Shown: piece by piece, positions 6,382-61,311 of the stretch
Layout of the letters: the number at the start of each line of letters is the position of its first letter
Numbering within the stretch: position 1 is the stretch's first letter
Source of the DNA: [Leptolyngbya] sp. PCC 7376
Lineage (GTDB): Bacteria; Cyanobacteriota; Cyanobacteriia; Cyanobacteriales; MRBY01
NCBI RefSeq assembly: GCF_000316605.1
Contig: NC_019683.1
Location: 3,518,036 to 3,582,035 of the forward strand
Length of the DNA stretch: 64,000 bases
Direction: 5' to 3'
The notes under the pieces: model-generated
Told to the model about the DNA's origin: nothing
Databases searched by the model: none
The model's input: the letters and a program-made list of their open reading frames with translations, nothing else
Position numbers and translations under genes: made by a program

Positions 6382-7050
6382 ATGTTTACAAAAGAAGTTA
6401 CCGACTCAAAATTATATCAGTGGTTTAACGAGCGGCTAGAAATTCAGGCGATCTCCGATGATATTTCTAGCAAATACGTTCCACCCCATGTCAATATCTT
6501 CTATTGCTTGGGCGGTATTACCCTAACTTGTTTCATTATCCAGTTCGCAACTGGATTTGCAATGACCTTCTACTACAAACCCACTGTAGCAGAAGCTTTC
6601 ACGTCCGTTCAGTACCTCATGAATGACGTTAACTTCGGTTGGCTGATTCGCTCCATTCACAAATGGTCTGCGAGCATGATGGTCTTAATGATGATTTTGC
6701 ACATTTTCCGCGTTTACCTCACAGGTGGCTTTAAGCGCCCTCGTGAATTAACTTGGATTACTGGCGTAATCATGGCTTGTATTACCGTTTCCTTCGGTGT
6801 TACTGGCTACTCCCTCCCTTGGGACCAAGTTGGTTACTGGGCGGTGAAAATCGTATCCGGTGTACCCGCTGCGATTCCTGTTGTAGGTGATCAAATGGTT
6901 GAACTACTTCGTGGTGGCACGAGTGTTGGTCAGGCTACTTTGACTCGTTTCTACAGCATTCACACTTTCGTATTGCCTTGGTTAATTGCGGTCTTCATGT
7001 TGGCTCACTTCCTCATGATCCGTAAGCAAGGTATCTCTGGTCCTTTGTAA
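6382..7050 (+). CDS. petB: Cytochrome b6
   Basis: The 222-residue core haem subunit of the cytochrome b6f complex in the thylakoid membrane, carrying electrons between plastoquinol and plastocyanin or cytochrome c6. Four membrane helices are visible. The haem-ligand His pairs lie in [18 protein letters not shown] and in [11 protein letters not shown]...[14 protein letters not shown]. Length and sequence match the family closely. petD follows after 58 bp on the same strand, preceded by a GAGGAG-type ribosome site. The 267-bp gap to ctpA upstream presumably holds both divergent promoters. Confidence 0.98.
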
Positions 7051-7108: not shown

Positions 7109-7591
7109 ATGTCTATCATGAAAAAACCGGATCTCAGTGATCCTTCACTCCGGGCAAAGTTGGCTCAAAACATGGGACACAATTACTATGGTGAGCCTGC
7201 TTGGCCTAATGATATCTTGTTCACTTTCCCCATCTGTATTGCGGGAACCATCGGTCTAGTTGCTGGCTTGGCAATTCTTGACCCTGCGATGATCGGTGAA
7301 CCTGGTAATCCTTTTGCAACGCCTTTGGAAATTTTACCTGAGTGGTATTTATACCCTGTTTTCCAAATTCTGCGCGTTCTTCCGAATAAGCTTCTTGGTA
7401 TTGCTTGCCAAGGTGCTGTTCCTCTCGGTTTGATGATGATTCCTTTTATCGAGAGTGTAAACAAATTCCAGAATCCTTTCCGTCGCCCTGTAGCAATGTC
7501 TGTATTCCTCTTTGGAACAGCTGTTACTCTTTGGCTCGGTGCGGGTTCTTGCTTCCCTATTGATGAGTCTTTGACTCTCGGCTTATTCTAA
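7109..7591 (+). CDS. petD: Cytochrome b6f subunit IV
   Basis: This 160-residue three-helix protein corresponds to the C-terminal half of mitochondrial cytochrome b. It forms part of the quinol-oxidation site of cytochrome b6f. The PEWY signature is present ([15 protein letters not shown]). Its N-terminal [19 protein letters not shown] is typical. It is the second gene of the petBD operon and is followed by a hairpin that looks like a terminator. Confidence 0.98.
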
Positions 7592-7625
7592 GTTTTTAGG
7601 ATTGGTTCAATATTTTTGAATGTGG

Positions 7626-7668
7626 CGATCGCCCTTTTACAGCATTTTGCTGTGGGGGCGATTTTTTA
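7626..7668 (+). terminator. Hairpin terminator after petD
   Basis: The sequence ATCGCCC...TACAGCA TTTT GCTGT...GGGGCGAT forms a nested inverted repeat followed by a run of six T, 35 bp past the petD stop. It would stop petBD transcription before the convergent kinase gene. The lower stem uses a HIP1 octamer. Confidence 0.7.
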
Positions 7669-7684
7669 ATAGGAAGCTATCAAA

Positions 7685-9520
7685 TCAAGATGTTGATTGG
7701 TTGATCGGCAAAGTGATTGTAAATTCTGTTCCTACACCCTGTTGAGATTTACAAGCAAGGGAGCCATGGTGATGTTCGGTGATAATTTGGTAGCTGATCG
7801 ACATGCCGAGTCCAGTACCTTTACCAACATCTTTTGTGGTAAAAAAAGGATCAAAGATTCGATTACAGGTTTGTTCATCCATGCCATAGCCGTTATCGCG
7901 AATCATGATGGCGATCGCCTGTTCATGAGTTAGGACAGCAGTTGAAATAGAGATGACTCCATTATTCGATTTTTTCGAGTCAATGATCGCATCAATCGCA
8001 TTACTCAGAATATTCATAAAGACTTGATTGAGCTGACCTGGATAGCACTCAACTTCCGGGAGATCACCATAGCGCTTCTGAATTGTGATTTCCGGTTGAT
8101 GAGGTTTTGCTTTAATGCGATTTTGCAAAATCAGAATCGTGCTATCGATCCCTTCATGGATATTAGCCATTTTGACAGGGGCTTCATCGAGGCGAGAAAA
8201 ATTACGTAGGGAGGTAATAATCTTCTTTATTCGTTCTGCCCCCAATTGAAGCGAGCTGATAATCGCCGGTAAATCGTCAAGGATAAATTCAAGATCCGCT
8301 TCTTGACATAGCGCTACGATATCCGGCGGCTGCTCCTCATGAGACTGTTGATAGGCATCGACAATATTGACTAAAGCACTTGTATAGTCTTGGATATGGC
8401 CAATGTTGCCATAGATAAAATTCATGGGATTGTTAATCTCATGGGCAACACCTGCGACAAGTTGTCCGAGGCTTGACATCTTGGCACTCTGGACAAGGTG
8501 AACTTGGGTTTGTTGCAATTTTGCTAAAGCTTGTTCAAGATCCCGAGTCCGTTGACCAAGGGTAAATTCCAATTGCTTGCGCTTCGTGATGTCGCGGGCG
8601 ATCGCATAAATTCGTTTTTCTCTTGAAATGCAAGTGCCAGACCAAGATAAATATTTATACTTCCCATCAGCACAGCGAAATCGATGCTCTAGTAGCAACG
8701 CCTCACGCCCTCGACTTTCCTGTAGCTTACGCCAAGCCTCTTCCGTGAGTTCCTCATCATCAGGATGGACAAAAGACCAAAAATTACTATTGATCAATTC
8801 ATCCTGAACATAGCCGAGAATATCTTCCCAAGCTGGATTAACCCGGATAAACTCACCATCAAAATCAATCACACAGAATAAATTGGGGGACAAGCTAAAG
8901 AAGCGATCGCGTTCTTGAGTTAGTGACCGCAGCCGTGCGGATTGTTCAAGCGTATGTTCAAGTAATTCACCTTGCTGTAGTGCAATGTCTAAATGGTGGC
9001 CAAGATGCCGAATGAACTCTATTTCCTGCGTTTGCCAATCCCGAGAACTATGACATTGATGTACGCAAAACAATCCCCATAAATGACCTTTAATGCGGAG
9101 GGGAACAATTAAATTCGCTCGCACCTTGAATTGCGCCAAGACATCAATATGACATTGACTTAAATTGGCATTATGGATATCACTAACGGCTTGAATGCGG
9201 CCATTCTGATAATTTCGGGCATATTCATCGCCAAAACATTGATCTCTCACAGGGGTGGCGATCGCCGAAGGTAGTCCTTCTCCCAAAGACTCTGCCACAA
9301 ACTCACCAATACGATAACCAGAGTGGGGCTTAAATCGAAAAATCCCGACCCGATCCGCGCCCAACATTTGTCGGATCTCCAGGGTCGTTGTATTTAAAAT
9401 CTGCTGAACATCCAGAGATTCACGAATGCGATAGACAATATTTAGTAGTGCCTGCTGCTGCTGTTCATTGAGCTGGCTAACAGGCACAAGATTATCGCTA
9501 TCTTTCAACTCAAAGGTCAT
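7685..9520 (-). CDS. GAF-PAS histidine kinase with cyanobacteriochrome (DXCF-type) signatures
   Basis: A 611-residue soluble sensor kinase. The N-terminal GAF domain (about 25-180) contains DQCF at 93-96 and a Cys-His pair at C123-H124 within SQCHIDVLAQF, followed by VRANLIVP and WGLFCVHQC. This arrangement is that of bilin-binding cyanobacteriochrome GAF domains of the DXCF class. A PAS/PAC domain follows (about 205-315), then a coiled segment, a HisKA-type phosphoacceptor at H360 ([11 protein letters not shown]) and a HATPase with DNGYGM and GKGTGLG boxes. No membrane segment is seen. It has no adjacent response regulator and runs convergent to petBD. Bilin binding is inferred from the motifs; without it this would be an ordinary GAF-PAS kinase. 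Confidence 0.8.
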   Translation of the reverse strand: MTFELKDSDNLVPVSQLNEQQQQALLNIVYRIRESLDVQQILNTTTLEIRQMLGADRVGIFRFKPHSGYRIGEFVAESLGEGLPSAIATPVRDQCFGDEYARNYQNGRIQAVSDIHNANLSQCHIDVLAQFKVRANLIVPLRIKGHLWGLFCVHQCHSSRDWQTQEIEFIRHLGHHLDIALQQGELLEHTLEQSARLRSLTQERDRFFSLSPNLFCVIDFDGEFIRVNPAWEDILGYVQDELINSNFWSFVHPDDEELTEEAWRKLQESRGREALLLEHRFRCADGKYKYLSWSGTCISREKRIYAIARDITKRKQLEFTLGQRTRDLEQALAKLQQTQVHLVQSAKMSSLGQLVAGVAHEINNPMNFIYGNIGHIQDYTSALVNIVDAYQQSHEEQPPDIVALCQEADLEFILDDLPAIISSLQLGAERIKKIITSLRNFSRLDEAPVKMANIHEGIDSTILILQNRIKAKPHQPEITIQKRYGDLPEVECYPGQLNQVFMNILSNAIDAIIDSKKSNNGVISISTAVLTHEQAIAIMIRDNGYGMDEQTCNRIFDPFFTTKDVGKGTGLGMSISYQIITEHHHGSLACKSQQGVGTEFTITLPINQSTS

Positions 9521-9742
9521 ACGTATCCAGCATTTTTTAGCAGGGGATCATGCCTTTATCCTACAGGATCACCTTTAACGATTCCGAACATTATGCTAAC
9601 AAGAGATCAAAGCTTTAACCTTAGGCCATGAACGCCATTGAACAAATGTTGCAATTTCTTTGCATAAGTTTTTAGACTTGTTCCAACCAGAAAATCCCTT
9701 GATATCTTTTAGGGGAGATTTAAACATGAGGTGTCAGCATCA

Positions 9743-10480
9743 ATGTCTGATATTAAGCTGGTCGTTCAAGTCGATACTTTTTTTAAAGAAGAGCCTAAAC
9801 AGGGTGCAGACCTAACCGACGATCAAAAAGTTTTTGTTGAAGATGGCAAGGAATACCCAGTGCATTCCTATGACATGTCTTTGATCAATGGTCATGTCAA
9901 AGTGGCATTTAAGAATACATTCCTCGGTCCCAAAAACCGCACGACTTGGTTTATCTACCCTCCCCATGTGCTTATTGATGGCAATGAGCCCGGTAATAAG
10001 CCAAATGATCAGCCCGCGAAAAATACAATCAAAATCAGCAAGTCCTATTCTGGCCCAAAAATCACACTCCCTGGTCATGGCAGTGTTTATCTTTGTCAGC
10101 CAATTATTCCCAACGGTCACTTCAGTTGGGCTGAGGCCACAAAAAATGGTAGTCGGATTCCCGTTGATGGCTCTGTAACGAAGAATATTATCAAGATCGC
10201 GAAGGTGATGGAAGAAGTGCGCGAATATGTTGGCGCGAAACCCATCACAATTAACTCTTGGTATCGTGATCCGGTTAGTAACCGTAAAGCTGGCGGATCG
10301 AAGCGCTCACGTCATATGGTTGGCGATGCGGTTGACTTTGTTGTCGCAGGTATTTCACCTCCAAAGGTCAACAGAATGTTAGAGCCTTGGTGGGGTAGCC
10401 GTGGTGGGATCGCTAGTGCTAGCTGTTTCACTCACATTGATGCTCGAGGCTATAAGGCGCGCTGGAGCTATGGTTTCTAA
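9743..10480 (+). CDS. M15-family (VanY-like) D,D-carboxypeptidase domain protein
   Basis: About 245 residues from the ATG at 9743. A GTG at 9731 in the same frame is possible, but GAGG at 9728-9731 is suitably placed for the ATG. The C-terminal half has the M15 zinc-peptidase signature SRHMVGDAVDFV (Ser-x-His-x6-Asp pattern) and the distal CFTHIDARG. These supply the His, Asp and His metal ligands, preceded by INSWYRDP. The family trims peptidoglycan peptides or cleaves D-Ala bonds. The N-terminal 100 residues are beta-rich and unrecognised, perhaps a wall- or surface-binding module. No signal peptide is evident, which is odd for a wall enzyme. Confidence 0.75.
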   Translation: MSDIKLVVQVDTFFKEEPKQGADLTDDQKVFVEDGKEYPVHSYDMSLINGHVKVAFKNTFLGPKNRTTWFIYPPHVLIDGNEPGNKPNDQPAKNTIKISKSYSGPKITLPGHGSVYLCQPIIPNGHFSWAEATKNGSRIPVDGSVTKNIIKIAKVMEEVREYVGAKPITINSWYRDPVSNRKAGGSKRSRHMVGDAVDFVVAGISPPKVNRMLEPWWGSRGGIASASCFTHIDARGYKARWSYGF

Positions 10481-11043: not shown

Positions 11044-11908
11044 AGTTTTGGTTACACCTCCCGCTTGGTTATTAGTTGATCCCTTCCTAAAGCAATGGCT
11101 GCAAGAAGATCTGGGTCGAGGTGATCGCACTACAGAAGCATTATTTACAAATAAAAAAATCCCCACTGGCCAAGCTCAATTAATACTAAAGGCTCCAGGT
11201 ATTGTGGCGGGTCTACCATTTGTGGAACGCGTTTTTCAGCTAATTGGTCCAGATTTTGAGATGCAAGCAGCCTTAGCAGAAGGCAAAGATGGACAACCAA
11301 AAACACTGATTGCTACTTTGACTGCACCTCTCGACACATTATTGATGGGGGAGCGAGTCGCCTTAAATATTTTGATGCGGCTGAGTGGGATTGCGACGGA
11401 GACAGCTCATTATGCTCGTAAAATCGAAGATTTGCCGACAACTCTTGTGGATACTCGCAAAACCACACCGGGCTTAAGGTTGCTCGAAAAATATGCAGTG
11501 CGCGTCGGTGGTGGGCGCAACCATCGCTATGGCTTGGATGACGCGATGATGATTAAAGACAATCATATTCAGGCTGCTGGTGGGATCACCGAGGCGATCG
11601 CCGCAGTTCGTGCGAATAGTCCTTATCCATTAGCCATCGAAGTAGAGGCAGAAACCTTAGAGCAGGCAATCGAAGCTGTGCAGCAAGGTGCAGATATTGT
11701 GATGCTCGATAATATGTCTCCCGCAAAAATGGCTGAGGTGATCCCTCCTCTGCGTGAGATCAATCCCCGCATTAAACTAGAAGCCTCGGGCAATATTACT
11801 CTTGAAACTATTCGCGCTGTGGCAGAAACAGGCATTGATTTTATTTCCACCAGTGCAACGATTACCCGTGCGCCGTGGCTGGACATCAGTATGAAAATTA
11901 CAGCTTAG
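11003..11908 (+). CDS. nadC: Nicotinate-nucleotide pyrophosphorylase (quinolinate phosphoribosyltransferase)
   Basis: NadC converts quinolinate and PRPP to nicotinate mononucleotide, the step that feeds de novo NAD synthesis. The protein is about 301 residues, or 296 if the ATG at 11018 is the start. It shows LGRGDRTTEALF near the N-terminus, the phosphoribosyl and substrate loop DTRKTTPGLRLLEKYAV, then GGGRNHRYGLDD and MIKDNHI, and a TIM-barrel C-half with IEVEAET and VMLDNMSP. The first possible start overlaps the upstream DUF2973 gene by 41 nt. The 11018 start, which begins MTIRIATHK, still overlaps by 26 nt. Confidence 0.95.
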   Translation: MLPLAMTIRIATHKVLVTPPAWLLVDPFLKQWLQEDLGRGDRTTEALFTNKKIPTGQAQLILKAPGIVAGLPFVERVFQLIGPDFEMQAALAEGKDGQPKTLIATLTAPLDTLLMGERVALNILMRLSGIATETAHYARKIEDLPTTLVDTRKTTPGLRLLEKYAVRVGGGRNHRYGLDDAMMIKDNHIQAAGGITEAIAAVRANSPYPLAIEVEAETLEQAIEAVQQGADIVMLDNMSPAKMAEVIPPLREINPRIKLEASGNITLETIRAVAETGIDFISTSATITRAPWLDISMKITA

Positions 11909-30972: not shown

Positions 30973-33690
30973 ATGAATCGGCGTCGACCAGGATTTTTTA
31001 ATCAGTTTTCGCAATTAGCTGTGGTCGCTCTAGTGGTCACTCTGATGTTAGCCATTCTCGATTTTCGCGATCGTTCAGAAGTCAATCGTATCCTGATAGA
31101 GCAACAGACACTTTTACTCTTAAAAAAGCAACTTACCCAAGCTAATCAGGACTTACTAAGAGCAAGACTCAATGAATCGCAATTAATTAATACACAAAAA
31201 TCCATTTTCTTTAAAGGATTTGAAGCAAAGTTAGAGCAGGTTGAAGCCCAAACGAAAAACCTAACTGAAGAGTCTAGCGATAAAGAAATCCGTGAACCTC
31301 TAACCACCACGCTTGTACATCTTGAGAATTATCAGAACTCAGTTTCCAATACTCGCAACCTGCAACGGGAGATGGGCTTAGATGATGTTGATGGTATTTT
31401 GACTCAGCTAAAAACCTCTAACCAGACCATCGAAAAATATTTGGATCTAGCCGAAAAAAAAGACTTGATTTTTGAATTTGCTCACATGCAAATCCAGGAA
31501 AAAGACTTTAGCAGTACCCTCGATATGCGGCTAGCAAATCAACTAAATGATCAAATCGAGGAAATGGACTTAGCGATTCAAACTTCGACTCTCTCCACAG
31601 ATTTGAAGGGAATGTTGCTAAACGAAATTGCTATCTACGAAAAACTGGTTTCTGCATTTATTAACAACACCATTGAACTAGAACTATCCATCGCAGAAAG
31701 TACCCTCCACTATGACCGGATTGCCCCGGAAATGGCTCTTAGTCAGAACAAAATCGATCAGATTTTAGAAGAAACCTCTGAAAAATTGCGATCGCAGCGC
31801 CGCAGCTCCACAATTCAAACCATCGCTATTTTTAGTAGTGCCTTTATTGTTTTGATATGGCTTGTCATTCTGCAATTGCAAGGTGCGAGAAAACTCGCTA
31901 AACGTCTACAGCAATTGGCTCAAGGGATGCAAGAAGTGGCAGCAGGAAACTTTGAAGAAATTGGTGAATTGCCCCAAGGCAATGACGAAGTGGGGACATT
32001 AGCGGAGACCTTTTTAGCAATGGCCACGAAGATTCGTAGCCAAATAACAGTTATTCAAAAGGCTCAAGAAAAAGCAGAAATCGCGAATCAGGCTAAATCA
32101 AGTTTCCTCGCTAATATGAGCCATGAGCTGCGTACCCCGCTAAATGCCATCTTGGGGTTCACTCAAGTTATGCAGCATCACGATAGCCTGACGACAGAGC
32201 AAAATAATCACCTCAACATTATTAATCAGAGTGGCGAACATCTTCTCGCACTTATTAATGATGTTTTAGATATGTCCAAGATTGAGGCAGGGAAATCCAC
32301 GCTCAATAAAGATAGTTTTAATCTCCCGAAGCTACTAGAAACTTTAGAAGCGATGCTGAAGTTTAAGGCTGAGTCTAAAGGGTTAGATCTCGTAATTGAC
32401 TGCGCTCCCGATGTACCTCGGTGGATTCGGACAGATCAGCAAAAACTGCGCCAAGTCTTAATTAACCTACTTGGTAATGCCCTGAAATTTACTCAGGATG
32501 GGCAAGTTCAATTACAGGTCACTCAAACTAATGCATCTGAAGAAAATCCAGAAAGCAGATTAGAGGCGACATCAGCTTTAAGTCAGGTATTAACCTTTGA
32601 GGTTATAGATTCTGGCCCAGGTATTACTCCCGAAGAATTACAACATCTATTTGATTCGTTTAGCCAAGGTGAACATGGCAAGCAGCAAGGTGGTACTGGT
32701 CTAGGGATGGCCATTAGTCAGAGCTTTGTTCAGCTGATGGGAGGAAAAATTCGGGTTGAAAGTCAGTTGGGACAAGGGACTCGATTTAGTTTTGAACTGC
32801 CTGTAGAAATAGCTTCTTCGGTCAATCCAAGCTTGGTAAAATCACGGGCGATCGCCAAACTAGCTGAGAACCAACCGGATTATCGAATTTTGGTTGTGGA
32901 GAATAATCAAACTAGTCAGTTACTAATGGTGCAACTTTTGACTGGGGTTGGATTTTCTGTAAAGACAGCAAGTGATGGACAGGAAGCTCTTGAACGCTGC
33001 CAGGAATGGTATCCGCACCTCATTTGGATGGATTTCAATATGCCGGTTATGGATGGTTATGAGGCGACTCGACAAATTAAACAGTGGGCTGAAACTCAAA
33101 GAGCATCCCATTGGGTTTTACCCTTGCAGTCTCAAGCCATCAATAAAAAGACGAACATTATGGCGGAAGTTGTTGGCAAGTCGTCTTTAGTTCTCCACGC
33201 AAAAGAAGAAAAAAATATTGACTCTGTTGTCTCCCAAGATTTTCCTGTGGTGATTGCGCTAACGGGCAAGATCTTTGAGATTGATCGCCAGCAGATGTTT
33301 TCAGCGGGATGTTGCGACTTTGTTTGTAAACCCATTCAACGGCAGCTAATTCTGGAGAAAATGGCTGATCATTTGGGAGTTTGTTATCAATATCAAGAAA
33401 TGGAGGTTCACTCTACACTTCAGGGGCGATCGCCCGTTTCAGACATAGACATCACAACTCATGGGAATGCTGCTGAACTTAGCGTTGAAATGTTGCAGAC
33501 AATCTCTGTGGAATGGGTTAAACAGCTTCACGATGAAGCTTGCCTCGCTGAGCAGGAAAACATCATTGATTTAGTCAACGATATTATGGATTCCAATCCC
33601 TCTTTAGCCTTAGCGATTCGGCATCTAGTAGATCAATTTGATTACGGGAAAATCATCATTTGTACAGAGCAGGTGTTAAAGCATGAATGA
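30973..33690 (+). CDS. Hybrid sensor histidine kinase (TM-HAMP-HisKA-HATPase-REC)
   Basis: A 905-residue membrane sensor. Two membrane helices (about 14-31 and 279-301) flank a long helical periplasmic domain. HAMP (about 302-355), HisKA with H384 ([14 protein letters not shown]), and HATPase with [16 protein letters not shown] and [10 protein letters not shown] follow. A receiver domain begins at [11 protein letters not shown], with the phosphoacceptor at D687 ([14 protein letters not shown]). The receiver is split by about 50 extra residues before its last strands (VVIALTG ... [11 protein letters not shown]). The C-terminal 100 residues are helical. The stop overlaps the start of the next kinase gene by 8 bp. 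Confidence 0.88.
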
Positions 33691-37339: not shown

Positions 37340-39163
37340 TCAGGGCACACACACAACACGGAAACCGACACTGTAGTTGCGAACGCCGGGGGTATTGTAG
37401 TTGCGGTACGCAGAACGGCAATTGCGCGGATTACTGATCCAAGAGCCGCCGCGAATAACTTTTTTAGCACCAGAATTTACAAAAGGTTTTTGGTTTCTTG
37501 ATATTTTGTAGCTGTCTTCCCAGCTATCCTCACACCATTCCCAGATATTTCCATACATGTCGTACAGTCCAAATTGATTTGGCTTTTTCTGACCCACGGG
37601 ATGGATTCTACAATTATTTCCTGTAATTCGTCCTCCATAATTTGCTGAATCTATGCGCCAAATTTCTGCACTATCAAGTCTTTTATCACCGCTATTGTCC
37701 GCGAACCAAGCATAATCACCCAATTGCTCTGCATTATCTCCAAAGTAATACCGCCGAGTCGTTCCGGCACGACAAGCATATTCCCACTCTGCCTCACTTG
37801 GTAATCGATATTGTTTGCCCGTTTTCTGATTTAACTTCTCTAGAAACTTTTGGCAGTCATCCCATGACACCTGTTCCACGGGATAATCATCACCCTTTTT
37901 GAAATGTGACGGATTATCATCTCCCATTACTGCTTGCCATTGCCCCTGCGTTACTTGAAACTTGCCAAGATAAAACGCTTCCGTGATTTCAACTCGATGC
38001 AAAGGCTTTTCACAGTTGTACCAGTCATCACCTGATTCTTTAATTAATCTCGCCACTTCTTCATCGGTATTCCCCATCAAGAAGTTTCCTTTTGGTATAA
38101 GAATCATCTCCAGCTTCACCCCATTCCCTAGTTCTTCCACCAGCGATTTCGGCAAAGTTTTAGCTGCTTTTTCCTCAGATTTCAGGACAACAGCCTCCGG
38201 TTTCGGCGAAGCAAATTCTGGAGCTTTTACCTGCTGACTGCCCACATATCTGAGCTGCTCTAGTGCCTGCTGCCTATCTTTCGGATCGTTCGCGTGAATG
38301 ACAACCTGTTCCCACAACTTTTCTGCTTGTTGCCACTGCTGTTGCTGAGTCGCGACCATCGCATCCCACATCAGACTTTTGATATCAGTGTTGTGCGATG
38401 AACCAGGAATATTTGTCACCACCCGTTGCGGCACCGGCAATAACATCTGAGTCGCCTTTTCTATCGGCTCTGCGATCACATAGGGACATTGCTGTGACTT
38501 CAGTTTTTCTGCCACCAAATTTGGCACCGTTTCCCGCAAATATTTGCTGAGCTGTTGGGCATTACAACGACTGGGATGATATTCACCTTCCAGCGCCTGC
38601 AATAAACCATAGGTAAAAGCTCCCTGTTTTAGATCCTTTAGCTCATAGGATTTCTGACCCGGCTCACAGGAAAATAGCGTAATAATTCCTGCTTGCTTTA
38701 CCAGCTCTAAAGTTTGGTGGCTACCCTTGCCATAATTTGGAATAACATTCCGACAAGCATCCAAAATCAGAACGAGATTTCCCGCACCACAACGCCTTAA
38801 AGCTCGAACGACTTCCTCGATGGCGATCGCCGAACGCTCTAAAGTTTGAGAAGAACCATATGTGGGTAAAAGATAATCCCTGCCCTCTTGCCGACCGCCA
38901 TGACCACTAAAGAAAAACCAAAAACTATCCTCTTTTCCTAAACGCACCGTATTCGAAATTCGCTTGATGCCGATCAGCAAGTTCGTCAACTCTGGCTGAT
39001 AATCTTTTTCCCCGTCCGCGTAGAGAATCACTTCCTCAAAGCCATTCCGCTGAAGATAGGACTGCATCGCTTTCGCATCATTCCCTGCAAACTCCAGCGA
39101 GCGTTCATATTGATAATGATTTACGCCGATGGTGATGGCGACATTGCGAGGCATAGCAAACAA
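37340..39163 (-). CDS. Caspase-like (metacaspase/orthocaspase) protease fused to a formylglycine-generating-enzyme-like domain
   Basis: 607 residues. The N-terminal C14-type domain (1 to about 235) has the His of the dyad at H88 (FFFSGHGGRQ) and the Cys at C137 (LILDACRN). A linker of about 100 residues rich in Gln and Glu follows. The C-terminal FGE/SUMF1-like domain (about 345-607) shows PKGNFLMGNTDEE, EVTQGQW-type FQVTQGQWQAVMG, YPVEQVSWDDC, RLPSEAEWEYACRAG, LYDMYGNIWEWCEDSW, VIRGGSW and a terminal VGFRVVCVP. The combination is known in cyanobacterial caspase homologues. In many such proteins the FGE part acts as a binding or recognition module. The start could be the Met at residue 4 (MPRNVAITIG). 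It follows the Trypco1-like gene by 66 bp. Confidence 0.9.
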   Translation of the reverse strand: MFAMPRNVAITIGVNHYQYERSLEFAGNDAKAMQSYLQRNGFEEVILYADGEKDYQPELTNLLIGIKRISNTVRLGKEDSFWFFFSGHGGRQEGRDYLLPTYGSSQTLERSAIAIEEVVRALRRCGAGNLVLILDACRNVIPNYGKGSHQTLELVKQAGIITLFSCEPGQKSYELKDLKQGAFTYGLLQALEGEYHPSRCNAQQLSKYLRETVPNLVAEKLKSQQCPYVIAEPIEKATQMLLPVPQRVVTNIPGSSHNTDIKSLMWDAMVATQQQQWQQAEKLWEQVVIHANDPKDRQQALEQLRYVGSQQVKAPEFASPKPEAVVLKSEEKAAKTLPKSLVEELGNGVKLEMILIPKGNFLMGNTDEEVARLIKESGDDWYNCEKPLHRVEITEAFYLGKFQVTQGQWQAVMGDDNPSHFKKGDDYPVEQVSWDDCQKFLEKLNQKTGKQYRLPSEAEWEYACRAGTTRRYYFGDNAEQLGDYAWFADNSGDKRLDSAEIWRIDSANYGGRITGNNCRIHPVGQKKPNQFGLYDMYGNIWEWCEDSWEDSYKISRNQKPFVNSGAKKVIRGGSWISNPRNCRSAYRNYNTPGVRNYSVGFRVVCVP

Positions 39164-58152: not shown

Positions 58153-61100
58153 ATGTCTAATTCGATTTCTCCTGACACTTTCCCACCACAGCAATGGGCT
58201 TTTGTCCTGCTGTTACAGAGTTATTGTCAGGCGATCGCCAAGATTCAGGCACAGGCGCAAGAAATCGAAACACTCGAAGCCTCTATGCAGCAAACGCTCT
58301 GCAAATATCACGAGGCAATGCACCAATATCATGACCTCAGAGAGCAGTTTGACCACCAATATAGCCAGCAGTACCAACAATACTTTTCATTGCCCATTCC
58401 CTGTTATAGCTGGCAATATGCCGACGAAACCCTACAGTTGATCGACTTTAATCCTGCTGCTGCCCGCTTTAGCCAAGATAAACTCGGCCATCGCACTGTC
58501 GCCATTGGTCACAAGCCAGAAAAATTATTTTCAGAGTGCCCTGCTCTACACCGTTACCTCAGTGATAACTATCAATCTCAAACATCAAGTACCTACCACC
58601 TAGAATTTCGCCATCGGCAGCTGTATCTCAAAGTGGACTATGTCTACCTTGAGCCGGATCAGATTTTGATGTTTATCGAGGATGAAAGTGAGCCGATTAT
58701 CACGGAGAAAAAATTACGGACAAAAGCAAGACAACAATCGACTATTTCCCGTCTTGGCCAACTAAGTTTAGAGGCAGAGCAGCTTGATCACAAAGAACTA
58801 GATAAATTGTTTTACCAGAGTGTTATCGCTGTGGCACGGATGATGGAATTACCTCTAGCTTCTCTATACCGAGTCAAGTCTAGTGACACAACTTGTTTAC
58901 TAGAAGCGGGATATGGCTGGGCAGAAGAGCTGGTAGGTATAGCAACGGTCAGTCGGGAATCCTCCCTCAGTCATATTGGCCACACCATCTCAGTTCAGGA
59001 TACGGTGGTTATTGATGATCTACGACTCGAAAAACGCTTTAGGGCAGAATCACTGCTCAATAAACATGGGGTTGTTAGTGGTGTGAGTGTTCTGGTTGGG
59101 ACTGGCGAAAATCTCTGGGGAGTTTTGGCTGTGTACAGCTTGGAGATACAAGCTTTTTCGAAAGATCAAATTAACTTTTTGCAGGCGATCGCCAATATCA
59201 TTGCCACCGCCGTTCATCGTGAGCAGCAAACCCGCAATATGAATTTATTGCACCACTCTATTAATGCTATTGATCAAGGCGTCATCATCACTGATCCGCG
59301 CCAGAGTAAAAATCCAATTATTTATGCAAACCAAGGTTTTGAGAATATTTCAGGCTACAACGCCTCAGAAATTCTTGGTAAAAATTGTAATTTCCTCCGG
59401 GGAGAACAAACAGAAAAAGCGTCCCTAAACAAATTGAGAGATGCTGTTCTCCAAGGCAAACCCTGCCATGTCATTCTCCGTAACTATCGTAAATCTGGGG
59501 ATATGTTTTGGAATGATTTACAGATTTTTCCTGTTCAAGATACCGATGGTACTCTTACCCACTTCATTGGCATTCAAAAAGATATTACTGAGCAGCGGGC
59601 GATCGCCGAACATCTCTATGAAAGTGATTTCCAGTTTCGCCAGATGTTTCATCTCGCACCGATTGGGATGGCTATTACCGATCTCGAAGGACGCTACATT
59701 ACTGTGAATGAGGCATGGAGCAAAACCCTTGGCTATGAACAGCGAGCCTTACAGGAGTTGAGCTATCTAGAGGTGACCTATCCCGAAGATATCTCCGAAG
59801 ATTTACATCAAAATCAGGCCTTACAAGCCGGTCAAATTAAACAGTTTCAGCGAGAAAAGCGCTATCTCACAAAAGATGGCCAGGTGATCTACACAATCAT
59901 GCAGGCAGTTTTGGTGCAAACAGCAGCAGGCGAGCCACACCATGTGATTCGGCAAATGGTTGACATTAGCGATCGCAAACATATGGAGCAGCAACTTATT
60001 CGAGATGCACTGTACGATTCTCTGACCAATTTACCAAATCGCTCCCTACTCCAAGAGCGTCTCCAGCAATCGATTCAGCGTCACCAACGTTATCCAAATT
60101 ATAATTTCGCAGTACTCTTTCTCGACCTCGACCATTTCAAATGGGTCAACGATAGTCTTGGGCATCCAGTGGGTGATCAGCTGCTACAAGTTTTTGCATT
60201 GCGGGTACAGGATTGCCTCCGAAAAACGGATACTTTAGCGCGGTTGGGAGGGGATGAGTTTGTAATTTTGCTGGATGAGATTCACCAGGAAAGTTTTGCG
60301 CTACAGATTTCACAACGAATTCATGAGGCGTTGCAATGGCCATTCAAATTAGCCGCGCAGAATATTTTTGTGGATGTCAGTATTGGCATTGTGCAAGGGT
60401 CGATGAACTATAGCAGTCCAGAGGCCTTATTGCGGGATGCGGATGTGGCGATGTATCAAGCAAAATCTCGCGGGCGATCGCGCTCAGAGGTGTTTGACCA
60501 TCAGCTGCAACAGGAAGTTTTAAATCGTCGACATCTGGAGCAGGATCTACGACAGGCGATCGCCGAGCAGAGTTTAACGATGCGGTACCAGCCAATTATT
60601 CGCCTAGATCATGGTGAATGTGTGGGGATTGCCGCTCAGATTAATTGGGAACATCCTCGGGATGGCTTGATTGACCCTGATTATTTTTGGGCGATCGCCA
60701 CTGAAACAAGCTTAAGTCGACCTTTACTGCGTTGGGGATTGAGAGCAGCCTGTCAGGATTTACAACAATGGCAACAGACCTTGGGCAGGACTCTCCAACT
60801 ACACTTTTATATTTCCGCTCAACAACTTCGGGATCCCCAGCTCCTTCATCTGATTACAGCCATGCCAACGACTTATGGCCTGGACTATCAACAGCTAATT
60901 TTAGAGTTTTGTGAGTATCCCGAAGATGTTACTGATATTGAAATTCGACAACATCTCGTCCAACTGAAAACCCTTGGAGTCAAGCTATTTCTCGATGATC
61001 TTGGCGACACTAATCTTGCACTAAACTCTCAACATTATCAGCTCATTCAAGGAGTAAATATTAAAGCAAAAATCCTCAAGGATATTGCCAATGAACAAAA

Positions 61101-61311
61101 TGCGGAGTCTGCTTTATTTGGTGCGTTAGTGCATCTTGCCCACAGTCTTGATCTAGAGATCTTAGTGCAAGGTATCCAAACAGAACAGCAGCAACAAATC
61201 GCTCGCACTTTTAATTGCACATTTGGACAAGGAGACTTTTTCGGAGAATGGCAAACCAAGCAGCAAATTGCAGGGCTATTACAATCTCTGGCGATCGCCT
61301 CGTCAACCTAA
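58153..61311 (+). CDS. PAS-GAF-LOV-like-PAS-GGDEF-EAL signalling protein
   Basis: 1052 residues, soluble. Order: N-terminal coiled helix; PAS (about 75-175); GAF (about 215-355); a PAS domain closely like LOV (about 365-480) with GKNCNFLRG (Cys at 412), NYRKSGDMFWN and FIGIQKD; another PAS (about 490-610); GGDEF (about 620-780) with intact LGGDEF (699-703) and an RKTD inhibition site at 690-693; and a degenerate EAL (about 800-1050). In the EAL the signature is AAQINWEHP and the metal motif reads DDLGDT, so phosphodiesterase activity is unlikely. It should make c-di-GMP under control of one or more of the sensors; blue light is plausible. Confidence 0.85.
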   Translation: MSNSISPDTFPPQQWAFVLLLQSYCQAIAKIQAQAQEIETLEASMQQTLCKYHEAMHQYHDLREQFDHQYSQQYQQYFSLPIPCYSWQYADETLQLIDFNPAAARFSQDKLGHRTVAIGHKPEKLFSECPALHRYLSDNYQSQTSSTYHLEFRHRQLYLKVDYVYLEPDQILMFIEDESEPIITEKKLRTKARQQSTISRLGQLSLEAEQLDHKELDKLFYQSVIAVARMMELPLASLYRVKSSDTTCLLEAGYGWAEELVGIATVSRESSLSHIGHTISVQDTVVIDDLRLEKRFRAESLLNKHGVVSGVSVLVGTGENLWGVLAVYSLEIQAFSKDQINFLQAIANIIATAVHREQQTRNMNLLHHSINAIDQGVIITDPRQSKNPIIYANQGFENISGYNASEILGKNCNFLRGEQTEKASLNKLRDAVLQGKPCHVILRNYRKSGDMFWNDLQIFPVQDTDGTLTHFIGIQKDITEQRAIAEHLYESDFQFRQMFHLAPIGMAITDLEGRYITVNEAWSKTLGYEQRALQELSYLEVTYPEDISEDLHQNQALQAGQIKQFQREKRYLTKDGQVIYTIMQAVLVQTAAGEPHHVIRQMVDISDRKHMEQQLIRDALYDSLTNLPNRSLLQERLQQSIQRHQRYPNYNFAVLFLDLDHFKWVNDSLGHPVGDQLLQVFALRVQDCLRKTDTLARLGGDEFVILLDEIHQESFALQISQRIHEALQWPFKLAAQNIFVDVSIGIVQGSMNYSSPEALLRDADVAMYQAKSRGRSRSEVFDHQLQQEVLNRRHLEQDLRQAIAEQSLTMRYQPIIRLDHGECVGIAAQINWEHPRDGLIDPDYFWAIATETSLSRPLLRWGLRAACQDLQQWQQTLGRTLQLHFYISAQQLRDPQLLHLITAMPTTYGLDYQQLILEFCEYPEDVTDIEIRQHLVQLKTLGVKLFLDDLGDTNLALNSQHYQLIQGVNIKAKILKDIANEQNAESALFGALVHLAHSLDLEILVQGIQTEQQQQIARTFNCTFGQGDFFGEWQTKQQIAGLLQSLAIASST

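Follow-up and report, generated by a model that had tools for sequence, protein, structure and literature searches.

The gene at positions 7685-9520 of the window, by which the whole 64,000-nucleotide stretch of DNA from [Leptolyngbya] sp. PCC 7376 analyzed here is meant, raises the question of whether its product perceives light through a bilin and, if so, between which colors it would switch. The reading favored here, with somewhat more confidence than doubt, is that of a dual-cysteine (DXCF) cyanobacteriochrome histidine kinase with a teal photoproduct.

Gene and Domain Architecture

The gene and its domains lie on the reverse strand:

7685-9520, reverse strand: whole gene, a 611-residue GAF-PAS-histidine kinase (open reading frame list and translation)
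8978-9412, reverse strand: GAF domain with the putative bilin pocket, residues 37-181 (Pfam PF01590, 75.4 bits; AlphaFold2 model of residues 18-200; PDB matches)
9299-9301, reverse strand: F74, Phe on beta-2, one of the two trapped-twist (teal) residues (rule from the accessible parts of PMC5578081 and PMC5240096)
9233-9244, reverse strand: residues 93-96 (DXCF motif), C95 being the second cysteine (aligned to TePixJ C494)
9149-9154, reverse strand: canonical Cys-His, residues 123-124 (aligned to TePixJ C522-H523)
9128-9130, reverse strand: F131, Phe in helix 4, the other of the trapped-twist (teal) residues (same rule and sources as F74)
9065-9067, reverse strand: C152, additional cysteine of the ring-D column, nearly invariant across the clade (column counts in the alignment rows)
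8567-8902, reverse strand: PAS domain, residues 207-318 (NCBIfam TIGR00229, 76 bits, above cut-off; Pfam PAS_3, residues 225-303)
8183-8470, reverse strand: HisKA dimerization domain, residues 351-446 (Pfam), with H360 in HEINNP at 8426-8443
7700-8035, reverse strand: HATPase_c, residues 496-607 (Pfam, 84.8 bits; N, G1, F and G2 boxes found)

An earlier reading, made from the letters alone (the sequence-only reading), had described a GAF domain with DQCF at 93-96, Cys-His at 123-124 and VRANLIVP thereafter, followed by a PAS domain and a full kinase core. All of these elements are present exactly as described: the GAF match (E 8e-21) contains both motifs, VRANL occupies residues 133-137 and is followed by IVP, and Pfam returns PAS_3, HisKA with its histidine, and HATPase_c with all four boxes, which is the equipment of a sensor histidine kinase. 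The same reading had warned that a generic annotation would miss the light-sensing potential. This is borne out, since no Pfam match to the kinase, and none of the best 25 of 80 NCBIfam families, among which TIGR00229 (PAS) is the sole model above its cut-off, names a bilin sensor of such kind; GAF, PAS and kinase names are all that they yield. The gene is not that of a phytochrome (GAF-PHY), as Pfam shows PAS and kinase domains, not PHY, after the GAF.

An AlphaFold2 model of residues 18-200 (mean pLDDT 94.2), computed with 30 window and locus sequences in the input, represents the protein without bilin. Its best PDB matches are bilin GAFs, both in Foldseek (6OB8 with TMq 0.85 and 44% identity; 4FOF with TMq 0.77 and TMt 0.83) and in VIA-align (3W2Z, Z 25.1, rmsd 1.6 over 170 aligned residues; 6OAQ, Z 24.6, rmsd 1.8 over 169; 4FOF, Z 21.7, rmsd 3.4 over 164). 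The modeled domain has the bilin-type GAF fold, a common fold that does not by itself demonstrate binding. It ends in a long C-terminal helix (model residues 147-182, protein residues 164-199).

The Bilin Pocket and the Class of the GAF Domain

A phmmer search of the PDB with the GAF domain placed cyanobacteriochromes first: 6OAP (148.1 bits), NpR6012g4 (6BHN, 118.5), miRFP670nano (6MGH, 111) and TePixJ (3VV4, 109). The blue/green DXCF protein TePixJ (4FOF, 4GLQ, 3VV4) has the same fold, DXCF and Cys-His in equal columns, and 60 of 157 aligned residues identical. Because the alignment has no gap from DQCF to VRANL, C95 and C123 are placed on TePixJ C494 and C522, which are bonded to C10 and to ring A of the bilin, respectively, according to the accessible text of PMC6955287. 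Five of the eight pocket residues listed in that text are kept (D492=D93, C494=C95, C522=C123, H523=H124, N535=N136), and three are changed (H498 to E99, W499 to Y100, Q526 to V127); the commonest clade residues at the latter sites include Tyr at 100 (25/40 rows of the clade described below) and Val at 127 (21/40). An intact orthologue of the same genus (G005, 74% identity) keeps DTCF and Cys-His. TePixJ differs from the target in carrying Val and Leu in place of the tuning phenylalanines and Ile at column 152, in lacking a three-residue insertion between beta-1 and beta-2, and in its PDB name, methyl-accepting chemotaxis protein, whereas the target is a kinase.

At the level of sequence, the gap-free alignment to TePixJ and the conservation in the orthologue confirm that both cysteines stand in the right columns by more than chance. 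The sequence-only reading had proposed the DXCF class and had named the absence of bilin-pocket residues from such an alignment as the result that would speak against it. That result did not occur, and the assignment to the DXCF cyanobacteriochromes is supported by the columns of the two cysteines and by the fold matches. The three changed pocket residues, the frameshifted G004 copy and the absence of receiver matches within 22 kb of the gene weigh on the other side. We regard the gene as very probably encoding a covalent bilin sensor, and dual-cysteine DXCF photochemistry is predicted with a confidence only slightly lower.

Other bilin GAF classes fit less well. The best PDB match by both sequence and Foldseek, the dual sensor histidine kinase 6OAP/6OAQ/6OB8, shares 75 of 169 aligned residues and the kinase context with the target, but its red/green-type GAF has DQYF for DQCF (no second cysteine), Val at beta-2, and a place in another clade. 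An extended red/green cyanobacteriochrome is discarded on account of V91 in the Trp column of WXDXXL and the presence of C95. The latter also speaks against the NpR3784 group (DXXF, no second cysteine), as does the tree, in which the target stands apart from both miRFP670nano and 6OAP. The Phe at the beta-1 notch of this group corresponds to G59 by spacing, in our own mapping. In an Insert-Cys protein the second cysteine would lie elsewhere; here it sits in DXCF, and the three-residue beta-1/beta-2 insertion has none.

Clade Membership and a Third Conserved Cysteine

Matches to the target GAF at E 1e-38 or better are found in 194 of the 291 genomes of the class, its own included. A first tree of 150 domains comprised the target together with six PDB references, GAFs of its own genome, the orthologue, and loci from three queries (target GAF, 6OAP and TePixJ; profile intake at E 1e-15, duplicates removed). 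The target falls in a clade of 40 rows (SH-aLRT 93, not starred), separate from TePixJ-like, red/green and NpR3784/6OAP-like domains. DXCF, the canonical Cys and both tuning Phe occur together in 37 of these rows, the exceptions being L009_219 (DHSF), L168_505 and L150_99. Outside the clade, 70 of 110 rows combine DXCF with the canonical Cys, none of them with the Phe pair, which appears there in nine non-DXCF rows. The closeness to 6OAP had suggested a second cysteine newly gained in a red/green or NpR3784-type domain; this idea was rejected because the target is nested inside a clade of DXCF domains. The surveys of the named genomes (79 loci) matched mainly through the kinase part, and their few GAF rows were left out of the trees. 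Among 11 plasmid records the best identity was 38.8%, with no closer relative.

A further trait of the clade is a cysteine at position 152. It is present in 39 of the 40 clade rows, in none of the 70 outside DXCF rows (mostly Ile, 63/70), and in two of the remaining 40 rows, L222_319 and L193_696. Sixty further stretches, hand-picked rather than random, were drawn from three hit lists (40 + 16 + 4) and gave, after removal of one duplicate, 39 clade-like and 20 comparison rows. Every clade-like row has C152, with DXCF and the canonical Cys in 38 and the Phe pair in 37, as compared with one C152 (L289), 16 DXCF motifs and no Phe pair among the 20 comparison rows. In a FastTree including these rows, support values not being considered, the target and L009_30 first come together in a group of 79 members, of which 78 carry C152 and 75 the Phe pair. 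The tree was also rebuilt with 144 rows, with seven trait columns removed and L010_146, L193_696, L028_184, L150_99, L160_192 and L023_23 dropped; these include the sole clade row without Cys152 (L150_99) and one outside row with it (L193_696). Here a single branch (SH-aLRT 97, starred) separates the 39 labelled C152 rows from all others. Counting in L222_319, which has Cys152 and was unlabelled, C152 requires two changes on this tree, the Phe pair four, and the D.C motif twelve.

C152 fails as an exclusive marker, since it also occurs in the DXCF domains L289 and L229 (the latter from another kinase), both devoid of the beta-2 Phe, and in the non-DXCF rows L222_319 and L193_696. It is thus, as far as alignment columns tell, a strong, non-exclusive clade marker. 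By alignment, and by our own count of the spacing to the WXDXXL Trp, column 152 corresponds to Ile1076 of MCC3606390g2 (Ala in AnPixJg2), which lies at the beta-face of ring D in the accessible text of PMC11284453. It is conceivable, although improbable, that in this clade C152, beside ring D, binds the bilin reversibly as an additional thiol ligand or else serves as a switch sensitive to redox state; if so, its kinases would sense light and thiol state jointly through this residue. No counterpart of a conserved third pocket cysteine was found in the accessible literature with the wording "third cysteine", which is weak evidence of novelty, and the DHCF motif was not met in a literature search on teal-DXCF cyanobacteriochromes.

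The genome of the strain encodes at least seven GAFs with DXCF and the canonical Cys, the target included, among 30 of 50 GAF matches examined. Two other loci of this genome contain GAFs of the same clade. At L009 2026-2535 (genome position near 3491937), the second cysteine has been lost naturally, with DHSF in place of DHCF; this GAF keeps C152 and the Phe pair and adjoins an intact DHCF GAF in one 803-residue frame. At L181 (4914500-4923000), an 870-residue frame joins one DHCF GAF to two red/green-like GAFs, with Ile for Trp (IEDTHL), and a kinase.

Genomic Neighborhood and Distribution

Two genes precede the kinase in the window:

6382-7050, forward strand: petB (open reading frame list)
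7109-7591, forward strand: petD (open reading frame list)

The kinase does lie beside petBD, as had been pointed out, but adjacency is where the relation ends: the genes converge, their stop codons lying 93 bp apart, and the kinase is therefore no part of a petBD operon. A functional link is likewise not supported. The order petD, kinase, M15 peptidase, ORF100, nadC, priA is retained in a second member of the genus (G004) and, except for the peptidase, of which only short pieces match, in G005. All three copies being from a single genus, this conservation is weak evidence of anything. In G001-G003, no match to the kinase, M15 peptidase, ORF100, nadC or priA was found at E 1e-10 within 16 kb around petBD. 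One terminator-like site was detected at 7500-9800, not above chance (mean of 1.6 in shuffled sequences).

With the whole protein as query at E 1e-100, 29 of 60 genomes match, the own genome included. G005 matches at 74% over the full length and G004 at 68% from residue 87 on. The remaining matches listed start at residue 132 or later and therefore lack most of the GAF; three remaining members of the genus have no whole-protein match at this threshold. A frameshift interrupts the G004 kinase at residue 88/89, just ahead of DXCF (L177, about 8936). Since nadC on the same contig is also split (11283-11295), the frameshift may be a sequencing error; the two breaks reflect either such errors or decay. 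Across the 291 genomes of the class, E 1e-140 is reached in five, counting the own genome; G004 and G005 are absent among the matches listed. The others are G214 (49%), whose GAF has DHCF, and three genomes that belong to a single family (45%; DPCF in L229). No full-length protein nearer than the G214 kinase (L156/L226), from the same class and another order, was found beyond the genus; it is a GAF-PAS-kinase with DHCF and Cys-His that aligns over residues 6-610 and has a longer N-terminus. Within the 29 loci L141-L169, its gene (L156) alone aligns with the target across all three domains; elsewhere the GAF is matched, and any kinase match leaves out the PAS.

Several other genes of the window deserve mention. 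The M15 peptidase gene (9731-10480) is intact here and in G004 (91%), and the short pieces in G005 lie at L176 about 11179-11374. At 30973-33690, a hybrid kinase has a receiver matching positions 1-68 of the 111 of the Pfam model, and the remainder seems, by eye, to resume some 60-80 residues further on, as though an insertion separated the two parts. A protein at 37340-39163 combines Caspase-like (Peptidase_C14) and FGE-sulfatase domains. At 58153-61311, a GGDEF-EAL protein with GAF and PAS domains shows neither DXCF nor Cys-His in its GAF and is probably no bilin sensor.

Color Prediction and Competing Photocycles

In the accessible passages of PMC5578081 and PMC5240096, Phe residues at beta-2 and in the helix are tied to the photoproducts of teal-DXCF cyanobacteriochromes. 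The target has both (F74 and F131), at the beta-2 and helix-4 positions by which this subgroup is recognized, and shares DXCF, the canonical Cys and the Phe pair with members such as NpR1597g1 (PMC5240096, in part) by the published rule. Because F74 and F131 are present, a teal photoproduct is likelier than a green one, and we judge it likely provided that the dual-cysteine DXCF photochemistry holds. The prediction is thus a violet/blue dark state that gives way to a teal photoproduct, with the color taken from the Phe rule and not from kinship with measured domains. This rule comes from two secondary passages; moreover, the Phe pair also occurs in red/green domains, which form no adduct, and this counts against the teal reading. 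The accessible portions of PMC10151467 and PMC9415938 hold nothing decisive. Since the bilin sensor is very probable, its dual-cysteine photochemistry nearly so, and teal likely given the latter, the three together are moderately probable.

The sequence-only reading had expected a blue or violet to green cycle. Of this, the DXCF class stands, while the green color is probably to be replaced by teal in view of F74 and F131. An ordinary TePixJ-like blue/green photocycle would agree with the two cysteines, Asp, His and Asn that the target shares with TePixJ, and blue/green is the typical DXCF cycle in the accessible text of PMC11284453; nevertheless, TePixJ has Val and Leu at F74 and F131, and the absence of the Phe pair from all 70 DXCF rows outside the clade sets the target further apart, which makes this cycle unlikely. 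Slightly less likely again is an atypical bilin GAF with no dark-state adduct of C95 to C10, or with no phycoviolobilin, with, for instance, a cycle between teal and yellow or between blue and orange. Photoproducts that are teal, green or orange are described for some DXCF members (PMC5578081, in part), the kinase DpxA is a teal/yellow sensor (PMC4937213, in part), and Q94 is unusual, the corresponding residue being Pro in 65 of the 70 outside DXCF rows and His in 33 of the 40 clade rows, but D93, C95, C123 and H124 are all retained.

It could also be argued that the GAF is a relict devoid of pigment and that the kinase responds through its PAS domain alone. Pfam and NCBIfam (best 25 of 80 families) detect no more than GAF, PAS and kinase, and one of the three copies in the genus, that of G004, is frameshifted within the GAF. 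This reading is very improbable in light of the two cysteines and the five of eight checked pocket residues in the window copy, of DTCF and Cys-His in the 74% orthologue, and of the split nadC in G004, by which the frameshift may be a sequencing error. The blue/teal switch remains the preferred reading.

Proposed Mechanism and Chromophore Supply

The gene, its domains, the columns of both cysteines, the fold, the clade and the presence of PcyA in the genome are direct results; from them we infer the chromophore, adduct, colors, signal path, direction of signaling and partner as follows. The GAF domain would take up phycocyanobilin, with ring A fixed at Cys123, and addition of Cys95 to C10 would give a violet/blue-absorbing 15Z dark state. 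The phycocyanobilin would probably be converted to phycoviolobilin, whose formation is typical of DXCF domains (PMC11284453, in part). Blue light would then isomerize C15=C16 and break the Cys95-C10 bond, while Phe74 and Phe131 would keep ring D twisted and thereby give a photoproduct that absorbs teal and not green light. From the C-terminal GAF helix (about residues 164-199) the signal may travel via the PAS domain to reach the dimerization helices, altering phosphorylation, of His360 first and of an unlinked response regulator thereafter; this path is proposed on the basis of the domain order and the long helix.

Phycocyanobilin can be made by the organism, since the genome encodes PcyA (phycocyanobilin:ferredoxin oxidoreductase) at 1978019-1978684 (350.6 bits against a cut-off of 206), one of three Fe_bilin_red matches. 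The other two adjoin each other at 727050-728638 and are possibly, as a guess, a pair for phycoerythrobilin synthesis. The genome has 95 receiver domain matches, none of them within 22 kb of the gene, which counts against a linked partner, and a cognate response regulator nearby was accordingly dismissed. DpxA, a GAF-containing kinase that senses teal/yellow light, lowers phycoerythrin in Fremyella, according to the accessible text of PMC4937213.

Conclusions

The target belongs to a known and widespread type of GAF kinase and is most likely a blue/teal switch; the sequence-only reading was right on its class and probably slightly off on its color. In an otherwise ordinary find, the conserved C152 beside ring D stands out as the one feature with no match in the accessible papers. 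For this organism, the generic label of a GAF/PAS kinase gives way to that of a light sensor with a color prediction. For the family, the motif set of DXCF, canonical Cys, Phe pair, C152 and short insertion can serve to pick a large clade of cyanobacterial sensors from unannotated genomes.
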